Positions 6,701-61,473 of a DNA stretch of 64,000 nt are shown in pieces (within the stretch, counting starts at the first letter, position 1; each line of letters opens with the position of its first letter). Both the position numbers and the translations under genes were made by a program. Origin of the DNA: Oncomelania hupensis (Eukaryota > Mollusca > Gastropoda > Littorinimorpha > Pomatiopsidae); contig CM072515.1 in the NCBI GenBank assembly GCA_036898135.1, positions 67,663,567-67,727,566 of the forward strand, written 5' to 3'. The notes beneath the pieces are model-generated. The model saw only the letters and a list, made by a program, of their open reading frames with translations. It made no database searches and had not been told where the DNA came from.

Positions 6701-9700
6701 GGAGTGCCTTCAGTGTTACCATTAGGGTTATTTCAGCAGATCTTTTATACGTATGAGGGATGAGTCCTCTTTCAACTAAGTTGTTGTCTGGCCTGATTCC
6801 GCTCTTTGCAGTCTGCTAGACCCTATAAACAGTGACTAACTAACTAACTATGATATTTCCCAGAGGATAGTGTCCAATAATATCCAAGATCTTATAAAAA
6901 TAAAAATAAAAATAAAAATACAAGTCCTATCTCTATAGATGAGACAGATACTGCTTGCGTTCTCAAAACTTTTTTTGTCTCCTAAATGTCTATAGCCTGT
7001 GCCAGGACTCCATACAACATTAACATTGAAGTTTAAACCCACCTTTTTGGTCATATGGCAGTAGGGGATTACCATCCAAGGGGCTAGAGAGGGAAAGGAT
7101 CTAAATCAACACTGAACCTCCAGAGCAATCATAGTGCTAAGATGGGCAGTGAAAGGGGCACTACGGGATTTAAACCTGGGTCATCTGTGTGCCAGATGAA
7201 CATTCTACAACTGAGCTGTGGTGGTGGGGGGGAGGTGAAAGACAGAACTGTGATTTTGTGTTAGAACACTGGGCTTAGTGAGGAAGTGCGCACATTTTGG
7301 CTCAGAGCACGAGGGAAAAGTGTGACTGGGGAGCTGGCCGCATAAAACGTGGACAGTCCAGTTGGTGTTGGCACTAATTCATGCTTCACGCAGTTATCCC
7401 TAAGGTATGAAATCAAAGTAACCTCACATTTCCCTCGCAGCTACAACAGTCTACCAGAGGTGGCAGTGCGAGCGGTGACAGAGCGCCACCTGGTGGGCTG
7501 TCACCCTGAGCAGGAGTTGCTGCCCTTGGTGCTGGGCCAGTGCAACTACAGCCTGAGGGTGGGTCAGGCTGCCACGCTGGAGTACGACTTTGATGCTTTC
7601 CAGCAGCAACTGTCTGACACGCTGCTGCAGTGCAAGGCCAGGGTGCAGAGGTCACCTCTTGGCTTTTTTGAGGTAAGAAATATAATCCAGATGGTGAGAG
7701 TAGCTTTCTTGAGCTTGTTATAGATAAGAAATACAGAGCAATGCAAACTTTCTTTGTGGAGCATGGAGAATAATTCAAATAACATTTTGTGACGTTGTAT
7801 GCTGCCATGGCAAAGCTTTGAGATGAGGTCAGGTTTGCAATTTTCTTCAAAAAAATTCAACGCTAGTGTTGACACGTTTTCTTAATTTCACTTATGAGAG
7901 TCCCTTAACAAGTTTGTAAACATAGTTTTAAATGTTAAGGTGAGAATACTGTGCAAACCTTGTAGAAGAATGTGGATAAGACCTGGCCTTTGGGAGAAAC
8001 TCTTCCAATGGTGTGGACAGGAAAACAGATTTGCAGGGGAGTGATGATGGATTGGATAAGTTTGTTGTAGCATGTTATCCTGTTCATGCAAGTTTGTCCT
8101 TTAAGTAGTAATGATGTTTTGCCGTTGTGCCCTTGTTTACAGTTGGATCTGATGGTGTACCATGCGGACATGACCAGCTCTAGGCTGTTCAGAGTTTTGC
8201 GTGAGAAGATTCCACAGGTGCGCACTGGTTTTTTTTCTTGATTTTCTTGATTTATGTTTTGTTTATTTTGGTGCTGCTTGACTCCAGTCCTTGTTTAGGA
8301 GAGACACCTGGGAGCTTTATTTTACACAAAACTTTTGTCTCATTTATTTTATTTTATTTCTTTTAATGTTTTTTTTTCCTATTGGATTTGTTTGAATGTT
8401 TTATTTTGCATTTTAGCAGTTTTGTTTGCTGGATGGTTGTTTGACCAAAGAGTAATAGTTAATTTTTATGATACTCTTTGCTCAATTTGCTATGGTAACA
8501 CGGCTCCACACGCTCCAACCACCGCCAGCAGAGAGAAGGGGAGATTAATCTTTAATTGCTATCATCCCAGCAGAGAGAAGGGGAGGTTAATCTTTAATTG
8601 CTATCATCCCAGCAGAGAGAAGGGGAGATTAATCTTTAATTGCTATCATCCCAGCAGAGAGAAGGGGAGATTAATCTTTAATTGCTATCATCCCAGCGGA
8701 GAAAGGGGAGATTGATCTTTAATTGCTATCATCCCAGCAGAGAAAAGGGGAGATTGATCTTTAATTGCTATCATCCTAGCAGAGAAAGGGGAGATTGATC
8801 TTTAATTCTATCATCCCAGCAGAGAAAGGGGAGATTGATCTTTAATTGCTATCATCCCAGCAGAGAAAGGGGGAAATTAATCTTTAATTGCTATCATCCC
8901 AGCAGAGAAAAGGGGAGATTGATCTTTAATTGCTATCATCCCAGCAGAGAAAGGGGGAAATTAATCTTTAATTGCTATCATCCCAGCAGAGAAAAGGGGA
9001 AATTAATCTTTAATTGCTATCATCCCAGCAGAGAAAAGGGGAAATTAATCTTTAATTGCTATCATCCCAGCAGAGAAAAGGGGACCCAGCTAACCACACT
9101 TTCGGGGCCCGATGGGGCCTCCATCGGGCAGCCCGATGGGGCCCGGATCGGGCTACCGATCGGGGCCCGATCGGGCAAATGGAAATTGGAACCGACTCGG
9201 GCCTGATTCGGGCAAAGATCGGGCGATCGTCGGGCTACCCGAAACTTACCCGATCGTAACCCCACGTTCGCCAAACAGTAGCCCGACTTTCGATAAAGAT
9301 TGGGCGATCGTCGGGGTACCCAAAACTTACCCGACCGTAACCCAACCTTTGCCGAACGGTAACCCGATTCCGGCAAAGATCGGGCATACGTCAGGATACC
9401 CAACACCAACCCTATTGTAACCCAACTTAAACCAGAAACAACCCCGATAATGCCCCATCCCTGGCCAATGCTGATTTACCCTAAAATCATATCCCACATA
9501 TTGTTTATGATATGTGATTGCATGAAGAAAGAATTGAGATGTCTGCATGGTGTTAATAGGGACTGTCGGCACAGGCGTTTTTGTTTTCGTAAATCCTTGG
9601 TGTGGCCCCACTTAAGTATTTACACACCATTTCGATAACGATATAGCCTATATTAACGTGATCCTCGTCGCTATCGAAATCGTGTGTAAATACATAAACG

Positions 9701-17575: not shown

Positions 17576-17784
17576 CAGCAGTGTGGTGGTCTGGGTACAT
17601 GCTAGCAACGGTTTATGTTAAGTTACTTCGGGAAGGGTTAGTACTTGGATGGGTTACCTTGCTTGGAAGGCAACCACCAAACAACACAAACAAGTTTTAA
17701 ATGAGCACGCGACACACCCCAGTCTACCTACACACCCCAGTCTACCTACACACCCCAGTCTACCTACACACCCCAGTCTACCTA
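17576..17784 (+). mobile_element. SINE head with 5S-like box and start of its VNTR
   Basis: A segment like the internal promoter of 5S rRNA (GTTAGTACTTGGATGGGTTACC, 17638-17659, split here as GTTAGTACTT + GGATGGGTTACC) marks the head of a 5S-type SINE. From about 17706 four units of an 18-bp VNTR (CCCCAGTCTACCTACACA) follow and stop at the left end of the transposon at 17791. The VNTR and the SINE tail resume at 25215. The sister SINE at 19974-20285 has the same box and tail without the VNTR. Confidence 0.75.
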
Positions 17785-17790
17785 CACACC

Positions 17791-17808
17791 CAGAGCTGCC
17801 AAGTGCTA
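17791..17808 (+). repeat. Left terminal inverted repeat
   Basis: CAGAGCTGCCAAGTGCTA, preceded by the target duplication CACACC (17785-17790). It pairs with 25197-25214 at 17 of 18 positions. Confidence 0.9.
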
Positions 17809-18391
17809 CGCTTTGGGCGTAGTTTGCAACGCTAGAGTTGACATGGCTACGCTGTTACGCCCGGTCTCGATTTGCTACGCCCGGTCAAATTTTGTTTAGC
17901 GTACCACTTTTTGACAAGAAAGTGGCTGTGTAAAACTCGCACAGCAACAGCAAGTCGCCGTGTGACCGTTTTGTATCTGCCGCACGCACGCACACTGCGT
18001 CTGTGTTAGCCAATCGGAAAGCGCAGTACAAAATTACAGGAAACGCTTAACCGCCATCTTAGTTCTTCATGGTTTTAGTGCTATCTTGCGGAAGTGCAAG
18101 AAGGCAGCCATGTCTGACTGAATGACTTGTGTGCATCCAAACACTATTTTGCCAGTTGGGTGGTTGGTGTGTCACTGTGTGTGTGTTATTGTATTAAAGG
18201 TAATAGAAAGGCAGTTTTAAAGGTTTCAGAATGCACACACAGTATACGTCTCGTTCATCCATGTTATTCCGGAAAACTGTTTGCATACCTAATCAACTGC
18301 CAATATTTTCTGCAAAAAATATAATTTAGCAAAAAGTTTCGCCGAGCGAGCAACAAGCGTCGTCTGCTTATCCAAGTCTCAAATATTCTCG

Positions 18392-18420
18392 CGCGCATGC
18401 GCATAGGCATCGTGACGTCA
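18392..18420 (+). promoter_or_regulatory. NRF1-like and CRE sites upstream of the transposase gene
   Basis: CGCGCATGCGCA (18392-18403) fits the NRF1 consensus. A palindromic CRE, TGACGTCA (18413-18420), lies 66 bp upstream of the chosen ATG. A matching TGACGTCA lies 85 bp upstream of the other gene in the element (24986-24993). The sites are seen; their function is inferred. Confidence 0.55.
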
Positions 18421-18485
18421 TGTGCAGGGTGAAAGATGAGGCGAATAGCGAAAGTAAACATCCCGTTCTGCTGCTTATCACCGCG

Positions 18486-21400
18486 ATGCCGAAAGAATGC
18501 GCTGCTGGCGAATGTAATGAGCTGCAAGTGCCTGGAAGTCAATTTTCCTTTCACAAATTTCCTTCGGACAAAGATTTAAAACGAGAATGGGCTTTGAAAG
18601 TTAACAGGGAGGTGAGATGCCCCAAAACAGGGAAAAAGATGCTGTGGATGCCAGCAAAACACGACGTGTTGTGTTCCCGGCATTTCGCGCCGGAATCTTT
18701 TACGCAAAGAACACGTCTGGCACTGACGGACACGAGCATTCAAAACCTAAAATTTTTACCAAAGTTGGTTGATAATGCAGTGCCGACTATTTTTGAATAC
18801 AACATCAGCAAGAGAAAGAGAGAGGAAGAAGCAACAAGGAGGAGATCAGCTGTGTCAAAGAAAAAGCAAAAAACACAAGTAAGTATTGTCACATATATCC
18901 TACTTAAAGAAAAATTCCACTTGTAAGTTGGGGAATTTGTAGAAAATGTTCTTCATAGGTAGGGAGAAGGGGGAAATGTGCTTGTGCATGTCTGAATACA
19001 TCATTTGCAAACTAATTAAGTAAATGGTTTCTGCATGTAAAAAAAAAGATAACCAAAAATAAATAAATAAAATTTAAAGAATATAAATAATACCAAAGAT
19101 TTTTTTACCCTTCTTTATTATTAGAGTTTCAGTTCTAACACCCTCATTTGTTGTTTACACAGGAACTTGGGACACTTTTGCAGACTGCAACACCTCCCAG
19201 TCTGGAACTCGTGGATGCTGGTGCTAGTGCTATGCCCATGTGTTCTGATGACACCTGTTCTACCACTAGTAGCACAGCCAGCATTCCACCACCTACTTGC
19301 ATGCAAGACATTGGGATCCAAGTTACACCGGTATATCATTTTGCATCAGAGTTGGCTTACTGTTGCATAAACTCATATCATTGTACATGTAACCTGTTTC
19401 AGTCTTTCAAAACTTGTATCAGACTGTAACTGTAAAATTAGTGAATTTGAAGGAAATTGTGTGGTTAAAAAAATCAAAACACGTTTTATGTGTGTGTGTG
19501 CGTGTTATGTGTGATAACAAGCTTTGTGATTTTCAGATCGTAGTGAATACAAAGCAGCAAACATTGCACAAAGCAATTGCTTGCTGTGAAGTGCAGACTG
19601 AGTGGACTGAGCCAGAAAACACTGAGGCAAGAGAGATTGCTCCTCACATGTCTTCCAAGCTCACCCAAACTGATCTAGTCGGGTAAGGGTTGAAAAAATG
19701 CATTCACTTTCTAACTTCCAAATAGAAAAAAATCCAATTATAATGCACAAATCTCCAACAGACACATGTTGTTTATAATAATAATAGTAATAATGTTAAA
19801 AGATCTAATTGCTGGATTTTATGGTTTGTGATGATAACTGATTGCTGTGGCAGGCCTGAGCTAGAAGAGCATGTAGAGGAAGAGAACACAGCTGCAGATG
19901 ATCCAGAGGGGAAATATCAATCACAGCAGACTACTCCAAGGTAAAACTTGTACTTATTTTTGAGTTTCTCCCTGGGGTGTCGGATAGTGCAGTGGTTGGA
20001 GCACTCGCTACTGTGTCGAAAGTGAAGCACCGTCCGGTGCGGTTAGCACTTGGATGGGTGACCGCTAAGGTGTGAAGCGACAAACAACAACGCCCCCAGT
20101 TGACTCAACTGTGATTGAGTACCTACTCTCTTGAGGGTGGGGAAGGTAAAGCAGCGAGGGAGAGAGTTGGGCATCACCCTCATTACGCTGGCCCAAGATA
20201 AGTGTGATCTCCAACATCACGCTCCCCTACGGCCACAAGGCTATGGGACTACCTTTACCTTTACCTTTACCTGCGTATAAGGAAAAAAATTGTACTTTGT
20301 CAGTTTTGAGTGCCCTGCACACATACTGTAAAAAAAAAAAAAAAAATTTAATATTAGAAACAAATCGAAATCTTTATTTTTTAAACTTGCTTGCCAAAAC
20401 GTAATACGTAAGTAACTAATGCAATTAAGGGATTAGACATGAAAAATGAGCAAATCCTGTTGGCTTTTTTTCTTTTCCAGACGCCAACTGACTGAAGACC
20501 TTCACTCTGTGGATCCATTCAAAGAGCGTAAATATATAGTGTTTGAGAGTCAGCTTGAGACCTTACTGAGTAAGTGTCAAAAGTGTCATCAGCCATGTCA
20601 AGTCATCAAGAAAGGGGAATGTGGCACTAGTGTAGAGTTCTCTTGTGAGTGCAGCCTTGCTACCTGTGGCCACAAGTACACCTGGCGCTCTCAGCCCTGC
20701 TCACAAAAACTACCTCTAGGTAATCTGGTTATGGCAGCTGCTACATTTTTCACAGCATGTTCACCTAGTAGACTCATCAATGCCTTGAAGCAGGCAGACA
20801 TAGCATGTTTCAGCCTACAGACTTACAACAGCATTCAGTCATCATATCTGGTGCCAGCAGTGCGAAATGTGTGGCAAGTATGGCAGCAGCGCCTTTTTGC
20901 AGCAAGGAGAGGAAGATCAGTCAAACTTGCAGGGGATGGCAGATGCGACTCGCCAGGACACTGCGCCAAGTATGGCAGTTACACTCTGATGGATGCAGAA
21001 ACAGCTGAAGTTTTGCACAGTGAACTGATACAGGTATACTTTCACAAAACAATACTCACACTTTCAGAATACAACTTAAAGCTTCACGTGGGTGCAAATA
21101 TGGGCTAAAGAAAGAACATGAGGTTATATCTAGCACTCAATCACTGACTGAAGAAACCTTAAAGGCCAAAAATTTTCAAGACTATTAAAAGAGGAATGTT
21201 TATACTTCTTGTGTTTGTTTTTGAATAGTCTTTTGTATATATAAAATCTTCTTCAGAATTTCACAATCATTGCACAATGAATGTAATGAAGGTCCCAAAT
21301 GTGTCTGTACAGAGTAGCCAGGTGAAAAACTCTCATGCCATGGAACTTGATGGCCTCAAAAAAGGGCTGAGAAAGGTGAAAGAAGAGGTCAGAATCAGTC

Positions 21401-22970
21401 ATCTCATCACTGATCGACATGTTAGTGTAAAGAAACACATGCAAGAAAATGAACCAAGCATCACTCATCACTTTGACATTTGGCACATGGCAAAAGGTAA
21501 GGTGCTTTTGTCAATATGATTTATTATTTTAATTGCATGCATAATGATACACCATGCAGTGTGTCCGTCTAAACTTGGCTTACACTCAGTTTACTGACCA
21601 TACATGTACTATGCATTGTCACAACCTTTTTGGCTTGTATACACTTTTTTCAGGTGTTGGTAAGAAGATAGACAAAGCTGGGAAGAAGCGTCAGAATGTA
21701 CACCTGGCTCTTTGGTCACAGAGCATTGGCAACCATATGTACTGGTGCTCTACAACCACTCCAGAAGGCCCCAACAGAACTAACATTATCAAGGAAAAGT
21801 GGTTGTCTATCCGCAACCACGTCGCTAACATCCATGAAGGTCATGGTACCTTGTACCCCAGATGTGAGCATGGTGACTTGGAGCCTCGAGCCTGGATCAA
21901 ACAAGGTAAACAAGACAATAAGTTATTTTTTTTCAGTGTATGATTTTTTTACTTCCAAATTTTATTATAAAATGAACCTTTTGTTATCTTGAAGTAAAAC
22001 GTTAATATGGGGTGATTTTTTTCCCCAGGAACAACACAATATAGAACTCTGGACAATATTGTGAGCAGTAAATATCTTTTGCGAGACATTGGCCTGTTGT
22101 CTCCAGACGTACAAACAGCAAGCTTGGAATCCTATCATGCAACAGTCTGTCATTTCGCCCCAAAACTGAACAGCTTCACATTTTCAGTGATGCAAGCGAA
22201 GTATGACTTTTTACATTGGCAGAATTAAACACAATGTTGTTTCTTCTTTAGATCAAGTTTGTAATGATGAGACGCTGAGTATATATTTTTTCGCCTTTTT
22301 TAATTTATGTCAATGGTTACCTTGTCTTATGTGTAAATCTCTTAGGTATATGAATGTTTTTTTTTCTTCTTCTGTATGAATGTTTTTTTCTTCTGTATCA
22401 GTTTCTAAGATTAAATTTTCTCCTGTGTTACAGGCTCTACCTTGCAGCCATGCACTTCAATGCAAATGCTGACCGCAAACAAGCTGTCACTGCTAACGGG
22501 GACCTTCAGTGGATAGTTGCTCATCCTAAATCTGCCAAGGGAGTGGCAGTAGCAAAGCCAATCAAGGTGCCACAAACAAGGAGTATGTTTAACTTTGATC
22601 TATTCTGAAATTCTCTTTCTCCAAACTTTATAGCAAGATTTATGTAGAATTGTACGCTAGATTAAGAATAACAGAGTTGTCTATATTGAACGCAGTACTG
22701 TAATATATATTTATATTGTAAATGATGGAAGGTGTGTTTTGGAAGTTATAAATCCTATTTCTACCTACAGGTTACATTCAGGAGCTGTATCAGGAGGTTA
22801 TCCTGCTGCGCCTCGAAAACCAAAGCTACAACAAGGCCAAAGAAGCCCAGCAAGATTATTTGGACACAGTTCCCCTACCCCTGAGCAAATCGAAAACTCC
22901 AGTAAACAAAGCAGATGTAGTTGCTCATCACTGCGCGCGACTTAACTGGAACAGAAGTCACCCCAACTAG
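18486..22970 (+). CDS. THAP-domain DDE transposase
   Basis: Ten exons with consistent phases: 18486-18878, 19163-19330, 19537-19682, 19854-19940, 20481-21033, 21313-21496, 21654-21905, 22029-22200, 22434-22582, 22771-22970 (TAG). They encode 767 aa without a stop. The N-terminus is a THAP C2CH zinc finger (ligands C5, C10, C63, H66; the AVPTIF signature at 98-103), a DNA-binding module. A low-complexity linker follows. A catalytic-type core has a Cys-rich segment around 290-335, GDGRCDSPG (D417), ITDRH (D483), HHFDIWHMAKG and SLESYH (E628); I infer D417/D483/E628 as the DDE triad. It would bind the element ends and cut and join DNA in the nucleus. The start at 18486 gives the usual MPKEC THAP start; an in-frame ATG at 18420 would add 22 residues. 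It lies wholly inside the transposon, convergent with the ballast gene. The GDG and AMExxG patterns recall Kolobok-like transposases, but I am not sure of the superfamily. Confidence 0.87.
19974..20285 (+). mobile_element. SINE in intron 4 of the transposase gene
   Basis: An A-box-like TAGTGCAGTGG (19985-19995) and a 5S-like GGTTAGCACTTGGATGGGTG (from 20041) mark the head. The body contains GGTAAAGCAGCGAGG, also found in the SINE tail at 25980-26000. The 3' end is a (CTTTAC)n tail near 20258-20280. It is related to the SINE that hosts the transposon, and it inserted into the transposon's gene without breaking the frame. Confidence 0.75.
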
Positions 22971-23206
22971 ACTACATCTGTTTTGCTGTGAACACTGCTA
23001 GATTACATTAGTTTTACTTTGCAGCACTCACAATAAAAAAAAAGTTCAATCTTCTCTTTATTTACAAATACATGTAGTTTGTTTATGCACTACTCTTTTA
23101 CACTTTCTTTGGCTTTCATGGGACTTGGGTTTTCAAGACGAAGCAGAATAAAATATGATAGATATCTTGAATATAAAAGTAAACAAATAAAAGTAAAAGT
23201 TACCTT

Positions 23207-24901
23207 TTACACTGCATATCTGAAGCCTGCATACTCTTGTGATGGAAACTTCTTCCGTATCGCAGCCACAAGGCAGGCTGGCAACACTTTCCTGTTCCCC
23301 TTGCCAGTTGTCCCCCAAATCCACCTCACAAAGTTGCAGTAGGCAACATGCCGGTATGTCCTGAAATAAAATATAAGGTTTTACTATATATGTTATATTT
23401 TTGCCTCAGCACAGTATATACTTGTGTCAACTGGTCAGGTCTGCTTTACAAAGTTTTCTGAAAAGCTGGGCTGGAATAACTGAAACATGGCTAAAAGATG
23501 TTCTATAGAAAATAATTAATATAAACTCTTAACTCCATGGATTTTTAATCCGAGCTTTCGCACTATTTATTGTGCTTCATTAGAAAAACAACAATATATC
23601 ATATATATATATAGCTATTTTCTTTCCTACAGTGGTAATTAATACATATAGTAACAGAACAGATACCTTGAGACTTACCTATGTGGATGATCTCTCTGTA
23701 CCTCATTCCGGTAATATTCTCGAAGTTTCTGCTTCAGCAGGACAATTGTTGTTTCAATGGCGTATCTGTGATTAAAAACATCATAATAAGACTTTAGCAC
23801 TAGTAGATCTATAAAACAAATTGGTGTTGCAATACAAATTGTGTCCATAATAGTTAGAATTTGTTGTTTAAAGTTCTTTAGGCAAAAAAACAACTCTTAT
23901 TTGGAACTTGGTAGATATATAGTTGATTTTGATTTTGTGCTGTGTTTAATTAAAGGGGGAAAATTATGAGCAAACCAAATGCGGTAATGAATGTACTTTT
24001 TTGTAACATTAAAATGTGCTTGTAAGTGTGTCCTTGTGCTTTAAAGACGTGTGTAGGTGTGTGTTTGTATACGTGTGTGCTCTTTGATCTTTGTGAGGGT
24101 CAGTGCCTTATAAATAATGCATTATTATTATTATACAATAAAATGTAATGAAATTTTAAGATGCACATAAAGGTTTCTTCTTGTAATTGTGTGGCATGTG
24201 TACATTAAGCCTGAAATGAGTTTTACACACACCTTGACAAGCAATTCACAAATGCCCCTTCATGGTCAGTGATGCAAAGGGGGCCATCCTGTAGGTGGGA
24301 CTCAACCTCCTGATAGAAGTGGCAGCACCTCTTTTCAACATCTTTCTGCCCTGGCCACACCTCACATTTTTTACATTGGCAGAATGTACTGGAACAGTGA
24401 TGTAGGTCCAAGATAACAGTCGGTTGTTGAAACGTTACTTTGATGGTTACACAGTCATGCATCACTACATTTATTACTGATCAAAAGTTTGACAATTACA
24501 ACATTGCACTGTTTCAAACTGATGTTGACAAGACTAGTAGTACTACTACTAGCAGCCCCTTCACTTGTAAAGGCAGACATGAACATCGATGCCTAAACAA
24601 AAATTAAACACTTGAATGGTTCTCAAAGTATCTGAATCAATGAATTAGAGAACGACGCTGAAGAAACCAAAGTCAAAGAAATTTAACTACAAGGCAGTAT
24701 TTGAACAACAAGATTTTCATCACAAGACATAACAATCCGAGAGCGCCAGGAGTGAATGTGCTTTGTTTACCTTGCATCGTCTGCAACATGTGCTGGTTCC
24801 CCCTGCTCTTCATTTTCACTCTCCTCCGATTCCCACTCAATGCCGATGTTTTCCATGGCCGAGGCCAGTGGCTCGAACTGGTACCCTGCATATTCGGCCA
24901 T
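23207..24901 (-). CDS. P2X7-ballast-domain-like protein of the transposon
   Basis: Four exons on the minus strand: 24901-24771, 24388-24233, 23765-23679, 23360-23207 (stop TAA). All phases agree and give 175 aa with no stop. Start: MAEYAGYQFEPLAS. Residues 21-40 are acidic. A cysteine-rich part follows (CQCKKC at 47-52, CC at 65-66, CITDHEGAF at 82-90), then a basic C-terminal part (YRHVAYCNFVRWIWG 127-141, GNRKVLPAC 146-154, IRKKFPS 159-165, YAGFRY 168-173). This order of Cys and aromatic motifs matches the cytoplasmic ballast of vertebrate P2X7 receptors, known to bind zinc and guanine nucleotide. No membrane segment or P2X channel part is present. It lies tail to tail with the transposase, 236 bp apart, inside the same terminal repeats. 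A role as accessory DNA- or nucleotide-binding protein in transposition is inference. Confidence 0.85.
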
Positions 24902-24985
24902 TCTCAGCTTACGCAAAGTAAAACGGTGGTACACAATTGATGATTGAGCTGCGAAAATGTTGTGTCGGAGAAAGTCTACTGCAGA

Positions 24986-24993
24986 TGACGTCA
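24986..24993 (-). promoter_or_regulatory. Palindromic CRE upstream of the ballast gene
   Basis: TGACGTCA followed by CGTG, 85 bp upstream of the ATG at 24901. It mirrors the site at 18413-18420 upstream of the transposase gene, so both genes of the element may answer to CREB/ATF-type factors (inference). Confidence 0.5.
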
Positions 24994-25196
24994 CGTGTTT
25001 AGGCCTACTTCCAACCGTCTCGCGATACTCTCGCACCAAGAAATAATTGGGTCAGCAAACTGCCTTTCTACTACCTTTAAAGTGCAAAAGTAAATAAGCG
25101 GATGACCTTGTTCAGGGTTAACATTTTGTTGAAATGCTACTCCCAAACGCCATTTTGCTACTCCCAAGTTGCCTTTTTGTTACTCCCGACCAACAA

Positions 25197-25214
25197 TAGC
25201 AGTTGGCAGCTCTG
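25197..25214 (-). repeat. Right terminal inverted repeat
   Basis: Its complement reads CAGAGCTGCCAACTGCTA. It is followed by the target duplication CACACC (25215-25220) and then by the SINE VNTR. Confidence 0.9.
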
Positions 25215-26095
25215 CACACCCCAGTCTACCTACACGCCCCAGTCTACCTACATGCCCCAGTCTACCTACACTCCCCAGTCTACCTAATCTACCTACACGC
25301 CCCCAGTCTACCTACACACCCCAGTCTACCTACACGCCCCAGTCTACCTACACGCCCCAGTCTACCTACACGCCCCAGTCTACCTACACGCCCCAGTCTA
25401 CCTACACGCCCCAGTCTACCTACATGCCCCAGTCTACCTACATGCCCCAGTCTACCTACATGCCCCAGTCTACCTACACGGCCCCAGTCTACCTACACGG
25501 CCCCAGTCTACCTACACGGCCCCAGTCTACCTACACGGCCCCAGTCTACCTACACGCCCCAGTCTACCTACACGCCCCCAGTCTACCTACACACCCCAGT
25601 CTACCTACACACCCCAGTCTACCTAGTCTACCTACATGCCCCCAGTCTACCTACATGCCCCCAGTCTACCTACACGCCCCCAGCCTACCTACACTCCCCC
25701 AGCCTACCTACACGCCCCCAGCCTACCTGCACGCCCCCCAGCCTACCTGCATGCCCCCCCCAGTCTACCTGCACGCCCCCCAGTCTACCTACACGCCCCC
25801 CCTCCTCAGTCTACCTACACGCCCCAGTCTACCTACACGCCCCAGTCTACTCACACGCCCCAGTCTACCTACACACCCCAGTCTACCTACACGCCCCAGT
25901 CTACCTACACGCCCCAGTCTACCAACACACCCCAGTCCACCTAGCTGTGAATGGGTACCTAGACATGTTTTACAACCAGGGAAGGTAAAGCAGCGAGGTA
26001 GAGGAGATTGGCACCTCCCTCATTAAGCTGGACTAGAGAAAAGGTGTCACAAATGCTTCCCTCTCCAATGACTGAAAGGTTACAGGGACACCTTC
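25215..26095 (+). mobile_element. Expanded SINE VNTR (18-19 bp units) and SINE tail
   Basis: About 40 units of CCCCAGTCTACCTACACG with CACA/CATG/CACGG variants run from 25215 to about 25943. The array continues into a unique tail (GCTGTGAATGGGTACCTAGA, then GGTAAAGCAGCGAGG) ending near 26095. The tail resembles the body of the SINE at 19974-20285, so the VNTR is an internal expansion of a SINE. The long frame rich in Pro, Thr and Tyr across the array is a by-product of units that are multiples of three. Confidence 0.8.
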
Positions 26096-31692: not shown

Positions 31693-33041
31693 CAGAGGTG
31701 CCAACCCCCTCTGTGGTTTTTCAGTAGTAATTACAAAAATTTTCAGTAGTTTTAAAAATGTTTCAGTAGTATACATCACTCAAGGTGCACAGCGAGAAGC
31801 CGATGGAATTTAATACCCATGTTATACAAACAAATATCAAGAAGAGTTTACATAACCAAATAAAAATTTATAAAATTTCACAAAGTCTCTTTTGGCAGAA
31901 ATGTTGATTAACGATTTCAACACAAACACACACTTGACACTGTCTTGCTTCCCATTATACTGCTTGTTCATTCAATGTAACAGCTTCAAAACATGTTCAT
32001 ACACACAGAGCACATTATTTACAGCAATGTGGCCCTCTAGAAATTATTCTTTGGGTAACTGTTGAGATGTTGCTGATTTGCATTTCTTAAGGAGACGGTC
32101 ACTTAGGACAGTGTCATAGCAAGGACAAGTTGCTCTGGATTTAAGTGTCAAGATTGAAGGCAGGGTACTGCTTCCCATCGTTCCATGGAAGTCATTGTCA
32201 CTGACACTGTCGTCATCTTTCTTTGCACTAAAGTAACTCACCTGTGTTACTCCTTTTAGGGCTGATCCTGCACGAATATGTTTCAGCGACTTTGTATGCC
32301 GGAAAACATCGTCATACCCACCATGGGCGACCGAAAAATCTGACTCACATATTGTACCTCTTGCGTAAGAATTTGAAATGCTAGAAGGCTTAATGCAGGG
32401 AAATTCATTGGTATAGGTCGATTTAAAATGCTGACAACTTGACTTGGCCCCACAGCCCTGAAAATGAAAAAAAGGTCCCACTAGCCTTTGGCTAGTAGCT
32501 TAAAAATTTTACTAGCCAAACTAAAAAAAAGTTCATTTTAGCGCACTCGCATTTGGCGACTGAAGTTTTTTTTTTAGTCGCCAATTTTTTTTTTCACTAT
32601 CCATGGCGATTAAATTAGTCGCCATTTTCAGGCCTGCCCCAGGTGCAAATGCTGATGGATCACTACTGCTTGGCCGTTTTCTTGGCCGTCCTACACCCCT
32701 AGCACTCATGATTCTTGTAAAGAAAGTAAACTACAGTGGCAGAGAAATCCCACACAATGAAACTTTCATCAGACTTTAATTTAAGCAGCGAAAGTGAACA
32801 ATATAAATTTTCTGATTGGCTGATTAGCTTAAGTCATGTGACATGGCTTGTGCATCTGCGATCGGTTCCACACTGTCAGTGCCTCGACCGTTGCGCATTG
32901 CGCTAGGTGTGAAAGATAAATGTAAAAAAAATTTCAACTGCTCAATTTTTTTCCGTAATTATTTCGGCAAATCCGTAATTCCGTAGTTTTTCATTTTTTC
33001 TGTAAATTACTACGGGAAAACCGTAGGGTTTGGCACCTCTG
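31693..33041 (-). mobile_element. Nonautonomous hAT-like element, 6-bp target duplication
   Basis: The ends are inverted repeats starting CAGAGGTGCCAA on both sides. GGCAAC flanks both ends (31687-31692 and 33042-33047), a 6-bp target duplication. On the minus strand an N-terminal piece (MSARGVGRPRKRPSSSD at about 32708, AT-hook-like) and a BED-like finger (ARGTICESDFSVAHGGYDDV...H...H, within 32481-32044) remain, but no catalytic region, so this is an internal deletion derivative. The coding part is interrupted by a 184-bp MITE (32453-32636). It lies in the large intron of the RNF213-like fragment. Confidence 0.8.
32453..32636. mobile_element. 184-bp MITE nested in the hAT-like element
   Basis: Terminal inverted repeats CAGCCCTGAAAATG and CAGGCCTGAAAATG (13 of 14 match) and a 5-bp CCCCA target duplication (32448-32452, 32637-32641). 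Removing it with one CCCCA rejoins the minus-strand frame of the host element (FAPGA to KSSCQH). The interior has GGCGACTAATTT- and GGCTAGTA-type motifs. Confidence 0.8.
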
Positions 33042-37610: not shown

Positions 37611-38516
37611 TCCTATCCTATCCTATCCTAACCCGTAACCTGGAGGTCATACCGGGGCACCACAGATGATCGTTTAACCAGCATACTCCATCTTTCTCTG
37701 TCCTCAGCAGCCCTGATGGCTTCGCTCAGTGTCAAACCAGTCCATTCTTGAATGTTGTCCTGCCACCTCTTTTTCGGTCTCCCTCTTCTTCTACCTCCTT
37801 GCACTGTGCCTTGCAGAATAGTCTTTGCAAGGCCTGATGATCTGGTGACGTGGCCATACCATCGGAGTTTCTGTTTCTTCACCACTGTGAGCAGGTCATC
37901 GTGTTGTCCAATGGCTTGTGTGATGGTCTGTCGGACTTCGTCGTTGGTGATGTGTTGGGTACAGGAAATGCCCAGAAGTCTTCTGTAGCACCTCATCTCC
38001 ATGCTTTGTATTCTTCGTTGGAGATCTGCTGTGAGGGTCCATGTTTCGCAAGCATATAGGAAGATGGAGATGACAAGGGAGTGCAGCAGTCTTACTTTGG
38101 AATGTAGACTGATGGTCCTGTCTTTCCAAATGGGCTTCAACCTTGTCAGGGCAGCAGTTGTTTGTGCGATCCTGGAGAGGACTTCCTGTCGGGACCCATT
38201 GTCTGATACAATGGCTCCTAAATATTTGAAGCTATGCACTGTGTTGAGGGATTGGCCTTGGACTTTGATGTCCGTGTTGATGCCATTGGTGTTGTTGGTC
38301 ATCATTTTGGTCTTCTCTGCACTTATTTCCATTTCATGAGCTCTGGAGGTGGTGTCAAGCCTCTGTACCAGCTGTTCAAGTTCGTGTTCCTCTCCAGCCA
38401 ATCCATCAATGTCATCCGCAAAACGGAGATTGGATATTGCTCTACCCCCTATGCTGACTGTGCCTTCATGATCTGCAAGAGCATCTGACATGATGCGCTC
38501 TAGGAAGATGTTGAAG
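37611..38516 (-). pseudogene. LINE reverse transcriptase, C-terminal part, split by an insertion
   Basis: The minus-strand frame 38521-37628 has an RT core with NLRFADDIDGL (FADD catalytic box), KYLGAIVSD, FLYACETWTLT, then RWYGHVTR and GRPKKRW near the C-terminus. This architecture is common in RTE-like and related LINEs. The 3' tail is (TAGGA)n (37611-37628). The frame ends at FNIFLERIM and resumes 9.4 kb away at 47878-48876, because another LINE inserted here with an 11-bp target duplication (38506-38516). Confidence 0.88.
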
Positions 38517-38910
38517 ATCAATCAATATTTCATTTATTGTCTATTCACACATTCAGGTGATATTAGACATTAATTAATAACAACAACAATATAATCAAAT
38601 CACAATTAAGAACCTTATAACAAAATGGAATGAAAGGGGATTGGGAATCTTGAGGGATTTAACACCAAACTATAAAAGTCTACCAATAGGAGTCGCCATT
38701 GCAATAATTTTCACAACTGCTGTTATCTGTGAATGATGTAATACATCATCTAAAGAATGTCATATTCAGTCAAATGATGTCCTTGGTTTTCATACAGTGC
38801 ATTTAAAACTGGACATTCTAATAAAATATGGTAAACTGATATGGAATACTAAATATTCAGCAGATATTCAGTGTATGTGTGGCAAAAATATATCAGTTTA
38901 CCATATTTTA

Positions 38911-42620
<3,710 letters not shown>

Positions 42621-43034
42621 ATTTTACTAGTGTAATTTTTTTACCTTACACTCACTTTAATTTTAATGAGGAATAGATATATATTCTGTATTTATTTATT
42701 TTAACAAAAAGTGCATTTGTATTATAATCCTTAATGAATAATTTACATGTTATTGTTTTCATGTAATTATGTGTTGGTTTCTTTTCTTCACTTTTTTGGT
42801 AAATGTGAAACAAGTCTTTGTATTTTTCATGACAATTAGTAGAACTGCCAATTTTTGTTCCACCAATTTTCCCTTCGACGGTCACATTTTGATCTAACTT
42901 TTTCCCATAGGAGCCAATTCAGGTGACGCCCAATGTTCTTCGCCAAGGTTGCTGTAGCTCTTCGGTTGGGTTGTACTCCATCAGGACAATCATATTTTGA
43001 CATTCTCATGTTGAAGGAATGAAATGTTCTTGAT

Positions 43035-45275
43035 ATACTCAGGCATACGTTGGCTGAGGTAGACTGGAGTAGTATAAATGGTATAACTAGTGTTGAAGAA
43101 AGCTGGTTGTTAATTAAAACAAATATTATTGCAGCTATGGAGCAGCATATCCCCAGGACAAAAGTTAATGTACAGATGAAACTGAAACCCGTATGGTTCA
43201 GTAAATCCTGCCTAAAGAAAATAAAGAAAAAGTATGACCTTTATAAAAGATACTTAGTGACCCGTGATGGGTTAGACTACCAGCGATATATTAAGGTGCG
43301 AAATAAATGCACAAGAGAGGTGAAAAAAGCTAAAAAGAATTTTGAGAAAAATATTGCAATAAATTGTAAAAATAATCCGAAAGTGTTTTGGAAATATGTA
43401 CGATCTAAAACTAAAGCATCTTCGGGTATCAGCCCACTGGTAAAGGAGGATGGAGATATAGCAGGGAGTGATGCTGATAAAGCAGAGGTATTAAATAAGT
43501 TTTTCTCTAGTGTTTTTACTCAGGAGGATCTAAATAATATACCATTTTTAGACCTTGCATCTAGATCTGACAATGTTACTTTAACTGAAGTTCTTATAAC
43601 TCCGAAAGCAGTTCAGGAGAAGTTGAGCAAGTTAGATCCAAGTAAGGCTTTTGGCCCAGATGGTATACCGTCAAGAGTCTTAAAAGAAGCAAGTAAAGAG
43701 TTATCAGTACCACTTTGCCAACTTTTTAATAAGTCCTTAGAGGAGGAGGGAGTTGTACCATTGGACTGGAGAAGAGCCAATGTCACCGCCTTATTTAAAA
43801 AAGGCAGTAGAAGTGATGCAGGAAACTATAGACCTGTCAGTTTAACTTGTATTTTATGTAAAGTGCTTGAATCATTTGTCAGAGATGCTATCGTTAACCA
43901 TATGACTCTTTGCTCTCTGTACACGGAATGCCAGCATGGTTTTCGTAAAGGTAGGTCATGTGTGACGCAACTCTTGCAGGTAATGGAAGACTTTACGAAA
44001 ATGTTTGACAGTGGGGAGAGTTTTGATGTGCTTTACTTGGACCTTCTCAAGGCATTTGACTCTGTACCTCATGCAAGACTTTTAGTTAAACTAAAATCTT
44101 ACGGGATCACTGGGCACGTATTACAATGGATCAAGTGCTTTCTGGAAGGAAGAACCCAGCGTGTCAGAGTTAGAAATTATTTCTCAGGTAACGAGCCAGT
44201 GCTGAGTGGTATACCACAAGGCAGTATTTTGGGTCCCATTCTTTTTACAATTTTTATAAATGACTTACCTGACAAAGTATCTAGTAATTGTAGCATTTTT
44301 GCAGATGACACTAAACTATATAATGTGACATCTAAGTGCGATAAATTACAAAAAGATATAGATAGTCTTCTGAGTTGGTCAGATACCTGGCAATTGCATT
44401 TTAATGCATCAAAATGTAACATACTCCATATGGGTAAGAAAAATCCTGGACATGACTATTTGATGACCACAGGTGACGACAGAGTGACGATTGACCATAA
44501 TAGTGAGGAAAAAGATTTGGGGGTTACTTTTGATACAAACCTAAACTTTGATAAACACATAAACAATGCAATATCCAAGGCTAATAAAAATGCTCGGTAT
44601 CATACGCCGATCTTTTACTTACTTGGATAGTGATACCTTAACCCGCCTGTATAAATCGCATGTAAGGCCACATCTTGAATATATTGCGAATGTGATATGG
44701 TTTCCGTATCTTAAGAAGCAGTCATCTGCTTTGGAGAGAGTACAAAGAAGAGCGACTCGGATGATTAAATCGCTGAGACAATTGCCATACTCAGAGAGAT
44801 TGAGAGTTTTGGATTTGCTGCTCTGAAATTTAGAAGATTGAGAAGTGACCTGATCCAGACTTACAAGAATTTTAATGGGATTGAAAACATTGATGTTAAC
44901 ACTTTGTTTCAGTTGAATACTAACTCTAGAACAAGAAACTCACAGGACAATATTCTTATAAGACATTGCCGCACAAACAAAAGAAAATACTCATTCTCCT
45001 ACAGAGTTGCGCCCATATGGAATAAATTGCCAGTTGATACTAAAAGAGCTAACAACCTGAACACTTTTAAAAATCTTCTGGAAAAGGTAATTTCCATACA
45101 GAAATCAAAATTTGAGTATGATGACTAATTAGCATACTATCTTTAGTATTCCCCTAACAACCGCAAATGGAACCGGACAAGTAAAAATGCCCAAAATAAA
45201 AGGGACATTCAAAAAGCCGCGAGGCTTATACAAGTCCCTCCAAACTAAACTAAACTAAACTAAACTAAACTTGAT
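43035..45275 (+). mobile_element. 5'-truncated CR1-like LINE nested in ORF1
   Basis: It is inserted in opposite orientation to its host LINE. CTTGAT occurs at both junctions (43029-43034 and 45270-45275), and removing the block with one copy restores the host ORF1 frame (VSELFEIK joined to NISFIPST). The 3' end is a (CTAAA)n tail at about 45243-45269. The 5' end is truncated within ORF2 upstream of the RT. Confidence 0.85.
43050..45128 (+). pseudogene. CR1-like reverse transcriptase with two frameshifts
   Basis: The first frame (43050-44630) carries the RT: DPSKAFGPDGIPSRVLKE, NYRPVSLTCILCKVLE, HGFRKGRSCVTQLL, LYLDLLKAFDSVPHARLL, GIPQGSILGPILF and the catalytic IFADDTKLY (about residues 415-422). 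A frameshift near 44585 leads to KMLGIIRRSFTYLDSDTLTR, another near 44820 to LRSDLIQTYKNFNG. The end FKNLLEKV...FEYDD stops at 45128. It is about 690 codons if the shifts are ignored. The endonuclease is lost by 5' truncation. Confidence 0.9.
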
Positions 45276-45742: not shown

Positions 45743-47246
45743 CAGGGTCGGACCTGGGAAAAGTCGAAGGGGGGGTTACAGATTCAGCGAAGGCGCGAAG
45801 CGCCGAGCCTTCTAGGGGGGTCCGGGGGCATGCCCCCCCGGGAAATTTTTTTTTTCAAGGATGCAAAATGGTGCAATCTGGTGCAATCTGAACCTTGAAA
45901 AAGCCATTTGTGATGGTCTGGGACTTTGAGCTTTTTTAACAATTGAACTGACAAACTCTAGGGTACAAAAATAATCTGCCCCTGCCTTAAAAAAACAACA
46001 ACACACACACAAACATTTATAAAAATCAGCAGAGATGTTTTGTATACTATTATTATTCACTACTTTTTGTCGATCGGTAACGGTATAAAGCTTTACCTTG
46101 TAGTTTATGAACATCACAGCCCTGTTTTCATTTTCAGTCTTGCTGCACTAGGTTCCTCGGCATTAGTACCATTTGTTACTTGTATCTTCCTGCAAAACAG
46201 TTCACTGCCTCTTTGAAGTCAATATCAACATCCCTGTGCACTTTCAGTAAAGCAAGTCCATTGAGCCTCTGTTGCCCCATTGTGGAGTGCAGGTAATTTT
46301 TCAGGTTGCGCAACTGACTGTTTGAACGCTCACAATCGGCAGTAGTGACAGGCAGGGTGCAAAGGTACTTTAGCATGATGAACAGGTTGGGATAAAAATC
46401 CCTGTCACAATGTTTCAGTGCTTCTGATGCCGTGGATGGGATGATAGCTGTCGCATTCTCAGCAGCACTTCGCCATTTGCAAACCCACTGTTGGTATTCT
46501 GCATCAAAGGTAGTGTTGTCTGGTAGGCCAGACTCCCACAACATTGCCAGTGTCTTCATCCCTTCTGGAACTTGCATGAAACCGTCCTGGTTGTCTATTA
46601 AAGTGCTTGGCACCAGACCATCAACTGCTACGTCAGCAATTTTGAACCTCGAGTCCAATTCGGTTGACAGGTGTTCCAAGAAAGGAATGGCAATGCTAAT
46701 CTTGAAATATTCTTCTGGAGTGGCCGCAGGTTGGTTGTCACGGAGAGTCTGTCGGGATGCTTGACGAGGAACAATAACATCAGTTGTCAAAGCATTTACC
46801 ATTTTGCTAACTTCACCAAACCAGGCAACGAACGCTGTGTTCATAATTATCAACTTAGCATCTTTAATATTTCTAAAAAGTCGTTTTTGGGGGATTAGGG
46901 CAGTATCAAGGTGAAGGTGCTGGAAGAGGCTTGCGGCCAGAACAGGAAAATATGGCTACATTTACTCATTTAGGCTGAGGGGTTGGGTTACTTGGTCGTT
47001 TCAACGGGAAAACGCTTTGGACGTTTCAACGGATCCCTTGAAATGGATATTTCCGTTGAATTGTCTAAATAACTCTTTGTACCTTGGACCAAAAGTGACT
47101 AAAAACTGCAATGTTTTTAAAACATTTATTTAAAAATTGAAACTCTTTGCATTAAATAAAATCTTTTTTTTTTTTTTTTTACTTTGGAGGGGGGGTTTCG
47201 GAACCCAGGTAACCCCCCCCCCCCCTCCCTCCTGGATCCGGCCCTG
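45743..47246 (-). mobile_element. hAT element, internally deleted, 5-bp target duplication
   Basis: The ends are inverted repeats CAGGGTCGGAC and CAGGGCCGGAT. GTCGT flanks both sides (45738-45742 and 47247-47251). Near the left end a GC-rich palindromic stretch (GGGGGCATGCCCCC) occurs. Only the C-terminal part of the transposase remains (46853-46176). It sits inside ORF1 of the 9.4-kb LINE. Confidence 0.82.
46176..46853 (-). pseudogene. hAT transposase, C-terminal part
   Basis: About 225 residues with PEEYFKISIAIPFLEHLSTEL, ALKHCDRDFYPNLFIML and the dimerisation region LPVTTADCERSNSQLRNLK...MGQQRLNGLALL. This is the standard hAT C-terminal pattern (CERSxSxLRxLK...RLxxLALL). The catalytic N-terminal part is absent, so it is nonfunctional as a transposase. 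Confidence 0.9.
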
Positions 47247-56800: not shown

Positions 56801-59800
56801 GAATATTGTGGGTGACACCGACAGCGGTGAGGGGTTGTTAGTCATCGATTGGTCCTGATTTGGCTCGGAAGAGTCCGCTGGACCTAAAGCAATAATCATG
56901 TAATGTAATGTAATGTAGTCATCGATATAGATAAAAGGACATGACAGAGAGAGTGCTGGGTAAAAAAACTGTCTTGCCAAGCAATCTTTGGCTTCTCTAG
57001 GTGACAAATTAGGTCAAACTGTCTTTTTAGAACAGCTTGAGAATATTTTCGAACCATTTATTGACGCCGGATAGCATCCCTCACTTGGTTTCATACAATT
57101 TGGGGATCCAAGAAGGTATATCAGTAATTAAGATGGAGAGAGCGCAATCTCGTAGAGAAACCTAAAATAAAAGCATTTTGTCAGATTCAGATTGTATGTT
57201 CAATTTGTCAGAACGAATCCTGATTTATTTAATCTCTAAATTCTCTTCATCCTGTAGAAATCGGCACTTTTTTCGTCCTTTACTTTTCTTTCGATGACTC
57301 CAGCCCCTCAGCACTGTCAGAAGGCGTCTCCCAGAATATTCCAGTCAGCTGTCTTGACTGAGCAGAAAATATCCTCAACAAGCCGTCGCTGCTTCACAAA
57401 ATGTCTACAACAGGTGCATCACCATCATCAGTCATCATTATTATCATCATTATCATTACCCACCTTGAGGCTGTGGATGGTGCGTTTCATCTTGAGGGCA
57501 TTGGTCATAAAATGGTTGAGCGGCCGGTCAGGCTCACCGCCCAGAGCTTTGAGGAAAGAGAGCGCTGTGTTGAGGTTGTCAATGGACTGGCAGATGTCTG
57601 GCAGGTTGTCACGCAGGTCTTCCACAATCTGACGACGCTCTGCGGGACTCATGCACTCCTGAGACAATGCGCAACAGAAGGCAAGATTTGAAAACTTGTC
57701 ACACACCTAGATGTTACACCGCAGACCGTGTACACCGAGATGACTACTGCTTGGTGCGTGCACAGAAGTTTTGAGACGTTGACAAAGGCAATTTCAAATG
57801 GGAGGGTTGGAGAGGGTGGGATTTGAAAACTTGTCACAGCTAGACGTGGAAAGTGCACAAAAGACTGAGGTATTAATAATGGCAGTATAAATTGGGGGAT
57901 TTGAAATCATGCCACAGCTTGAAGTTAAACAGAAAGCGCTCAATTTGAATTTACTGTGGACAGAGAACACTCCAGACTCAACCTGGTACAGGCAAGTATT
58001 ATCGTAAGCAGCAGTGAACCATTGATTCAAGTATTGTATATGGCAACAGCAATGTATATAACCACTTACAAACACTTTGTGAGAACAAAAAGTAAAGTTG
58101 ATATAAGAATACGTAGGCTTTTCAAGAGACATTGTTTACTGCTCCTCATTTTTGTCATTTTATTTCAGAAACAAACAAAAGTTCTGAAAGATAACCATAT
58201 GGCAATGCGAGCTCAGTATTGACTACTATCACACGGTTTACCTGTGGTATTTTCTCCCTCAGGACTTTGAAGAGCCTGGAGCTGGTCGTATCAGCACGAT
58301 AGACCATCATCTCCACCTGTCAAACACGCGGACATACCAAAACAGCATTTTATTCAGGAGGAATGGAGAACTTAAAAGGTTTCTTTCTATCTAACAAATG
58401 GTTGGGATGATTGTACAAAGAACTGTAAAGAACTGTAAAGAACTCTAAAGTCAAGCTACACCACGCAAAACAATACAAAAATCCTCCCTTCCACAAAAGT
58501 ACAGCAATCCCTCAAAGTCACATCAGTTTTTAAAAAATTCCCTTTTTTGTCCTGCCTCCAATGCGACACAACCTTGCATCAATTTCTCCTCTTCCACCAT
58601 CCCTTTTCAGTGCCCTGAGAATGTTACTTGCACGTATGACGCTGCACCATACAATTAGCTGCCATCCTCATCATTAATCTCCCCAACAGTATTGTAGCAC
58701 AGCCACTCACCTCAATATGTCCCAGTGGTGACCTCTGCACCCTGGCCTTGCACTGCAGCAGTGTGTCGGACAGTTGCTGCTGGAAAGAGTCAAAGTCGTA
58801 CTCCAGCGTGGCGGTCTTACCCACCATCAGACTGTAGTTGCACTGGCCCAGCACCAAGGGCAGCAAATCCTGCTCTGGGTGACAGCCCACCAGGTGGCGC
58901 TCTGTCACCGCTCGCACTGCTACCTCCGGTAGTTTCTCATACCTATTGATTCAAATTTTCCCAAATGTTAAAGCGAGCTTGAAAGTCTAATACAAGACAA
59001 GATTGTAGTCTTGTTATAAAATTTGCTTATAACACTAGCACACTATATTTTACGCCGGTCATGTGCAAATTGATCCAAGCAAGCAAAGCCACTTGGATAT
59101 TATTTCGAAGGATTGGAGAGTACTTTGAGTAATGTAATGTGGACACATTCATTCCTAGTTGATAATACTAAGCCACTGTGTTTAGTTTTCTTGATTTTCT
59201 AATGTTTAGATTTTTTTTAGAAATGGATTTATGTGCAAGACACTAACAAAAAAATCATGCATCCCTTGAAAGAAAAACTCATCTTGAATTTAGTAGGATT
59301 TGTTACAATTAAATATTAATTGTTTAGATTTTAAAAAAATTTTGTGTGTTTTATGGGGTGATGTATTATGCGGAGTTGCTTCTCTTGAGCTGCATTTTTC
59401 TCATTAGGCAATGTGAGGGCGGTCTGCCTGAAAAAAGGTTAAGCTAAACATCCAAACTAACAAGCAGGGCTCAGAACTTTATTGAAGTAACGATAGCGTT
59501 TCACAACACCTTTATCAGTTGTAATAAGATGGGGCGTCCTGCCTCACGCAGGTGCAGTACTGTTTGGGGACACTGTCAGCCTCTTCTCTTATAATCATGA
59601 ATCCACAGGCAAATACAAACTTCTCTCATGTTATCAAAACTACCACAACTACTACCATCAACCAACTACACTACACACACAAACACAAACCCTGCTTACT
59701 TCTGATTGACCATGGGACAGTACAAATGTAGGAAGTCATTACTGCGTCCCAACAGGAACTGCAGCAGGATGTAGGAGCAGATGCCTGGACCGTGAGTAGA

Positions 59801-61441
59801 GGGCAACAGCATGGCGACTGGGCTGTTGCGAGTCACCTTGTGGTTGTGGAACTCTTCTGGCACTGATATATACCCTTCTGTGGGCTCCACACACCCTGAA
59901 AAATAGGTGAGGATAATGCAAAGGAAATAGTCTAGGCGAGGATAATACAAAAGAAATAGCAACACAAAAACACAGATAAATTAAACAGGTTTGCTTCTTT
60001 ATTCACAATCTGAAGATAATGTTTTTTTTTTTATTCAACAAACCATGGGATGACAGTGCTAAATCTATACTTTTCTCAACAAGATATGGGTGGAACAAGT
60101 TAAACCCACACTGTTCTGTTTTAATAAACGCACTGCAAGATAAAGCTTGCATAAATTTCTTTTTAAAAGAAAATGCTACTTACGGAACTGAATCAAGTGT
60201 TCTTTGACAATCTCCCAAGCCTTGGAGAAGTAGTTCAGTAGCTGATCCAGTCCAGTTCTTTCTGTCAACAACAAAACATCACAATGTAGGCATCAACAGG
60301 TGTGACTGTCTTGGTGCCTCTATGTGCTGAGAGAATGGCTTGTCAGTGAAACATGAGTGAAAAGCCAGTGCAAGCAGCAAGTGTGACTGTGCGCGCCTCC
60401 AAAAGACAAAGACACATCTCTTCTACAGAGGTGCCTACCCCCAGTCTGACCATTTGTGTACTGGCTGCATGAAAAATGTGTATTTTGTGTAATGTCAGAT
60501 TTCGCGCAACTCGCAACATTTGATCAAAGAATTATTGTCATGAAAACTGCCACATTCACAAAACATCAATTCATACTAATTCCAGCTCACCATTTTAATC
60601 CTCTCATGAAACAAAATAATATAGAACTCAACAAGTTATGGACACAAATGCACACTAATATATTATTTTTTGTGTTGTATTTTACTCCATACACCCCCAC
60701 CTCCTCCAAAGGATCTTCATATTGTCCAACAATTAATATGAATTATGAATATATATAAATGCATCATTATTTTCGTATATTCTGCTGAAACTGGCAACAC
60801 TTTTTGTTTTCTGAGCATACTAGAGTGTTCTGCATTTTGTTGTGTAAATACAGTGCCTTTTTATCCACTTTGTATTAATTTTAGACACCTAAGCCTAAGG
60901 CTGAGCCACTTTTGCCGGGAAAAACAAGTTTTATTTTATGTGAGGGTTACCTACTTTGAACAGTTGTATGAGTGCCTTAATATTGACCTATTTTAAAAAT
61001 TTAAATTTTTTTAATCTTCTAAAGGTTTGTACTATATAATAAAAACAAAATAAAACATCCTGAACCAAAATAAAATGTTTGTCCGTAATACCTAATCTAA
61101 GTGTCGCTGAATGTCGTATGCAGAGCAATGCTGAACTCTTTGTTGCAGTGAGCATAATGAACTCCTTTTGAAGATTCGATTATTCCTCAAAAACGTTCAC
61201 GGTATTCGCGTAAGAAATGTTGTCGCGCTTTTTGCTTACTTGCAACCTTATCCCGCTTTTCTTCAGACTCGCTCTCATCGTCACTCTCGTGTAAACGCTT
61301 TCGCAACACCATGTTTAGCACAATGGCGGATACAAAGTCTCGCACTACCTCTCACGCACGAGATTTCACTTTTGCTCATGCGCTCTAGGGTCAGCAAGTA
61401 AATGAAATAGCAGATCAAAACATATATAAAATCAGTGTGAA

Positions 61442-61473
<32 letters not shown>

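Follow-up and report, generated by a model that had tools for sequence, protein, structure and literature searches.

Two convergent genes lie in the 64-kb stretch of DNA analysed here (the window). The plus-strand gene (18486–22970) encodes a 767-aa transposase in 10 exons (18486–18878, 19163–19330, 19537–19682, 19854–19940, 20481–21033, 21313–21496, 21654–21905, 22029–22200, 22434–22582 and 22771–22970), with an AATAAA signal downstream at 23032–23037 and two more at 23147 and 23186. The minus-strand gene (23207–24901) encodes KolX, a 175-aa protein of the P2X7-ballast type, in 4 exons (24901–24771, 24388–24233, 23765–23679 and 23360–23207), with an AATAAA downstream at 23057–23062. These exon models are predictions, made by visual inspection of splice signals and open frames, and the exons are backed by similarity to relatives. 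All introns are GT-AG (9/9 in the transposase gene and 3/3 in the KolX gene) and the exons join in frame, which agrees with the original prediction of two convergent genes at this locus.

A THAP domain was detected by Pfam at residues 5–103 of the transposase (E 1.9e-11), with an AVPTIF box at residues 98–103. The catalytic motifs are D417, D483 and E628, along with DIWH at 504–507 (D504xxH507), and an H2CH finger at 566–583 (H566, H571, C581 and H583) is positioned between the DxxH and the last E. These features bear out the THAP-DDE transposase that had been predicted. Among 16 aligned proteins, D483 and D504 are invariant (16/16); the E628 position is E in 14 of the 15 proteins having a letter there and D in one, and the 16th ends early. 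The protein collection contained 91 relatives of the transposase core, the nearest being from Nucella lapillus (62% over 92%).

None of the Pfam catalytic-domain models matched the window transposase at cut-off, MULE reaching E 0.081 and 13.8 bits as compared to the 27.6 required. Pfam searches with the 16 aligned transposases, some of them partial, found THAP in 10 and the Mutator-like PF20700 in seven, and the window protein is not among these seven. P-element or hAT models matched none of the 16 at E 0.01, and a P-element or hAT identity for the transposase was rejected on this basis. The Kolobok motifs given in sections of PMC6004289 are a THAP domain, usually with AVPTIF, a DDE core with C/DxxH and an H2CH finger before the last E. 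The word THAP is absent from the main text of PMC9587614.

Inner and outer boundaries

The genes are enclosed by two sets of ends. The outer unit (17791–25214) interrupts a host 18-bp VNTR, detected with TRF at 17712–17790 on the left and at 25215–25943 (40 units) on the right. Its end, CAGAGCTGCCAA[G/C]TGCTA, begins at 17791 and has an inverse copy finishing at 25214, the two agreeing at 17 of their first 18 bases. End comparison placed the two copies of a CACACC target duplication at 17785–17790 and 25215–25220, and removal of the unit plus one CACACC restores the VNTR. Both the terminal repeats and the 6-bp duplication are thus as originally described.

Because the outer unit has neither a TTAA duplication nor a 5’-RR start, the window was searched for TTAA-flanked inverted repeats. 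Published Kolobok elements duplicate TTAA and start with 5’-RR, as stated in parts of PMC9587614; the 10 full-length Xenopus copies in Table 5 of PMC6004289, a source used in part, all start with AG and have intact TTAA flanks save for one right end. All pairs of TTAA in the window with a spacing of 200 to 15,000 bases were compared (n=35,874), and the pair 18194/25080 ranked top with 19/20 bases alike, followed by a runner-up at 15/20. In 100 windows shuffled within 200-bp blocks, which contain more TTAA than the real window, none attained 19/20; the best score was 17, seen once, and the others ranged from 14 to 16.

The inner element delimited in this way (18198–25076, plus strand, 6879 bp) has 20-bp terminal inverted repeats (TIRs) of the sequence AGGTA[A/G]TAGAAAGGCAGTTT at 18198–18217 and, inverted, at 25057–25076, and its end sequence is AGGTARTAGAAAGGCAGTTT. 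In this one copy, the 4-bp TTAA duplication (18194–18197 and 25077–25080) follows the Kolobok target rule and the AG..CT termini follow the 5’-RR / YY-3’ terminus rule. The boundary TTAA-AGG...CCT-TTAA (18194–25080) takes in the transposase and KolX genes completely. It is drawn from TTAA, TIRs and family rules, the empty-site evidence of the host VNTR applying to the outer boundary only. When the left TIR was compared with nine of the 13 distinct Xenopus TIRs in the part of PMC6004289 consulted, 11 to 12 of 16 bases were common with three of them, and the remaining six agreed at 5 to 9. Whichever register was used, the outer end had 4 to 8 bases alike with the same nine.

The outer boundaries at 17791 and 25214 had been proposed as the ends of both genes. 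This is made very unlikely by the tighter, TTAA-flanked inner boundary, which encloses the genes and fits the transposase family. Recent activity had also been proposed, in part from the near-identity of the outer ends, but near-identity of ends is no proof of it. A Kolobok variant making 6-bp duplications was dropped once the inner ends had been identified. IS3EU, for which passages of PMC10045372 give 6-bp duplications but TA..TA ends, was likewise discarded.

Without the inner element, the outer unit amounts to 541 bases. Its left arm (17791–18193) starts with CAGAGCTGCCAAGTGCTA and its right arm (25081–25214) ends with TTGGCAGCTCTG, and TG[CT]TAC[GT]CCC occurs twice in the former and three times in the latter. 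These are the only five occurrences on either strand of the window, with none in the inner element; although the motif was defined after the arm repeats had been inspected, its confinement to the arms suggests that they form one separate element. Two other elements with CAGAGGTGCC ends were found in the window, at 31693–33041 (6-bp duplication GGCAAC) and 60426–61569 (CTTCTA). Among 299 candidate end pairs in the window, a 6-bp match was seen in three alone, namely the outer unit and these two elements, and four further pairs had a 4- or 5-bp match and poorer ends. The CAG..CTG ends of the outer element are presumably hAT-like. The arm motif, the 6-bp duplications of the three CAGAG-ended elements and the hAT6 group, described in parts of PMC12730594 as a hAT group with 6-bp duplications, together point to a hAT6-like unit. 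The 6-bp duplication is common to the group and the outer element, whereas the outer element itself has no transposase. Having no coding sequence, the outer unit would be non-autonomous, and its ends together with the 6-bp duplication make a hAT6-like element its most likely identity. This nesting implies an order of insertion in which the 18-bp VNTR received the hAT6-like element, which in turn received the Kolobok.

KolX and the P2X7 ballast

The stand-alone, P2X7-ballast-like nature of the 175-aa protein was confirmed by matches to the Pfam model P2RX7_C (E 2.7e-12) and, among PDB entries, to chains of P2X7 (best E 7e-6). Its nearest relatives are from Pomacea and Littorina (53%). Like Nucella, the source of the nearest transposase relative, these are snails, and the host is probably a gastropod. 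The data suggest that a Littorina KolX (P0002) and a Littorina transposase (P0005) are located on the same chromosome, which does not imply that they are neighbours. A check by structure prediction had been proposed for the ballast fold; the predicted fold of a relative, P0001, is ballast-like, and this result concerns P0001 and not the window protein.

Residues were tabulated for 13 of the 23 KolX matches, P0096 and P0104, with cysteines missing, being left out. According to sections of PMC9587614, the P2X7 ballast has seven zinc-ligand cysteines, arranged around two zinc ions. Equivalents of all seven are present in KolX (C47, C49, C52, C65, C66, C82 and C154, corresponding to P2X7 477, 479, 482, 498, 499, 506 and 572), and are equated with zinc ligands by conservation. 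Each is found in 13/13 tabulated relatives, except position 482 (12/13). Basic residues R128, H129, R148 and R160 are kept in 12, 12, 13 and 12 of the 13 relatives, respectively.

The guanine-nucleotide site of the rat protein comprises R546, H547, R574, R578 and K583, as given in parts of PMC7016195. Three of these five are kept in KolX (R546 = R128, H547 = H129 and R578 = R160), as is the equivalent of Y550. The other two are replaced, R574 by V and K583 by S, and are missing in the relatives too; according to passages of PMC7016195, P2X7 of fish and amphibians lacks the same two residues, and H547 was not found in invertebrates. Contrary to the latter statement, the aligned sequences place H at the 547 position in 12/13 tabulated relatives, including 8/9 rows named as molluscs or jellyfish, and this histidine is common in invertebrate KolX.

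KolX and the P2X7 ballast are alike in sequence, in predicted fold (that of P0001), in the seven cysteines and in the equivalents of R546, H547, Y550 and R578. They differ in that KolX is a stand-alone protein and in that R148, which is R in 13/13 tabulated KolX relatives, corresponds to F566 in both P2X7 sequences of the comparison. In addition, the ballast part of KolX is spread over exons 2–4, with exon borders close to residues 44, 96 and 125, whereas the P2X7 ballast is described in parts of PMC7016195 as lying in exon 13. This difference suggests that the captured copy had fewer introns in this part, or that the KolX gene of the window gained introns, or that P2X7 lost them.

A ballast protein serving as a transposon accessory and as the source of the P2X7 tail, as envisaged in the original prediction, had already been described. 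Kojima and Bao (2022) state, in the sections of PMC9587614 used here, that KolX is encoded by Kol0 elements and adopts the ballast fold, and that fusion of a P2X4-like gene with KolX gave rise to P2X7. Descent of the P2X7 tail from KolX is thus already published. Rump et al. (2020) reported ballast proteins across Metazoa, and the portions of PMC7016195 consulted include an ORF from Ixodes whose N-terminal domain is printed ‘TAHP’; the word stem ‘transpos’ is absent from the text of that paper. Among the papers listed by the literature searches, none besides the works cited here was seen to treat the link between KolX and P2X7, other papers having been judged by title and opening lines.

A very probable Kol0-type Kolobok and the proposed role of KolX

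The TTAA duplication, AG ends, THAP domain with AVPTIF box, DDE core and H2CH finger are published hallmarks of Kolobok and identify the inner element as a canonical member. We are highly confident that 18198–25076 is a canonical Kol0-type Kolobok, inserted into a non-autonomous hAT6-like element of ~540 bp (17791–25214) that itself lies in the VNTR. Very probably, this Kolobok encodes both the THAP-DDE transposase and the convergent KolX, an accessory protein of the P2X7 ballast fold. By published description, the Kol0 group (Kolobok-1_XT and relatives) shares with it the TTAA duplication, the AG..CT ends, the THAP domain with AVPTIF, the DDE core with DxxH and H2CH finger, and a separate KolX gene of the ballast fold. 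The window copy differs in being intron-rich (10 and 4 exons) and in being nested in another element. Parts of PMC9587614 describe the Kol0 group as lacking a second CCHC finger downstream of the first D, and describe KolobokP, KolobokE, KolobokD and KolobokH, which also combine a Kolobok transposase with an accessory protein, as having nucleases or a helicase and not KolX. The kind of element is known already, and what is new is an intact-looking, fully bounded Kol0 copy with KolX.

The locus could also be read as one transposon of 7.4 kb, in which the encoded transposase acts on the CAGAG ends and generates the 6-bp duplications, and the inner inverted repeat is an internal feature. The likeness of the outer ends (17/18) and the restoration of the VNTR are what such a transposon would produce. 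However, the inner TTAA-flanked TIR with AG ends obeys the published Kolobok rule, the arm motif, albeit chosen after the fact, is missing from the inner part, and tblastn found no KolX match in the other two CAGAG-ended elements (31693–33041 and 60426–61569) and only one chance-level transposase stretch, in 60426–61569 (E 0.53). A single transposon is accordingly very unlikely. P transposases carry a THAP finger as well, and the outer ends resemble those of hAT elements, so acquisition of a ballast gene by a P-element or hAT transposon might be considered. The Pfam results for the 16 aligned proteins speak against it, and the DxxH followed by an H2CH finger, together with TTAA, fits Kolobok, which leaves this origin scarcely credible. 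The intact frames would also suit a host gene pair of Kolobok descent that was domesticated and is no longer mobile, and domesticated Kolobok transposases have been reported in Xenopus (parts of PMC6004289). Such a fate is highly improbable at this locus, as the element retains its two TIRs and its two flanking TTAA copies and the surroundings are a VNTR.

For the Kolobok favoured here, a mechanism can be outlined from the family. The THAP finger would bind the Kolobok ends, and the DDE core, together with the H2CH finger, would carry out cut-and-paste transposition, cutting and joining at TTAA. KolX, a small protein whose C-terminal half has conserved basic residues, may be stabilised by zinc and aid the transposase-DNA complex. 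This helper role is put forward tentatively, as one possibility, and is favoured because the cysteines as well as basic residues of the C-terminal half are conserved in the family. Alternatively, KolX could switch transposition in response to zinc and guanine nucleotides, in which case nucleotide binding by the P2X7 tail would be a legacy inherited from a transposon regulator. The retained equivalents of R546, H547, Y550 and R578, and the widespread H at the 547 position, lend some support to this idea; the loss of R574 and K583 from the window protein and its relatives weakens it, and a switch is very unlikely. The Kol0 copy with KolX provides material to test the function of KolX, and hence the original purpose of the P2X7 tail. 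It also illustrates that a nested insertion can mislead boundary calls, since the visible ends and the perfect target duplication are most likely foreign to the enclosed genes.

Other features of the window

Intron 4 of the transposase gene contains a SINE-like piece (19965–20285, plus strand, limits set by eye). Part of it (20140–20191) recurs at 87% at 25979–26031, just past the VNTR, which suggests that the VNTR may have grown within a SINE copy. The CAGAG-ended element at 31693–33041 has an open stretch of 151 codons on the minus strand (32047–32499) with no Pfam match, which includes a zinc-finger-like motif of a sort seen in hAT elements. A separate hAT remnant is represented by an open frame at 46179–46955 (minus strand) with the hAT C-terminal dimerisation domain PF05699 (E 8.3e-12). 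A near-identical exon-like peptide (PEVAVRAVTERHLVGCHPEQ...) is encoded at 7346–7720 (plus strand) and at 58627–58950 (minus strand, no Pfam match), and is perhaps a repeated host gene or a repeat. Reverse transcriptase frames (RVT_1), probably LINE-type, are present at 43023–44627 (plus strand), 40146–41648 (minus strand) and 37631–38521 (minus strand), and a perfect (TA)53 run at 40176–40281 overlaps one end of an open frame for reverse transcriptase.
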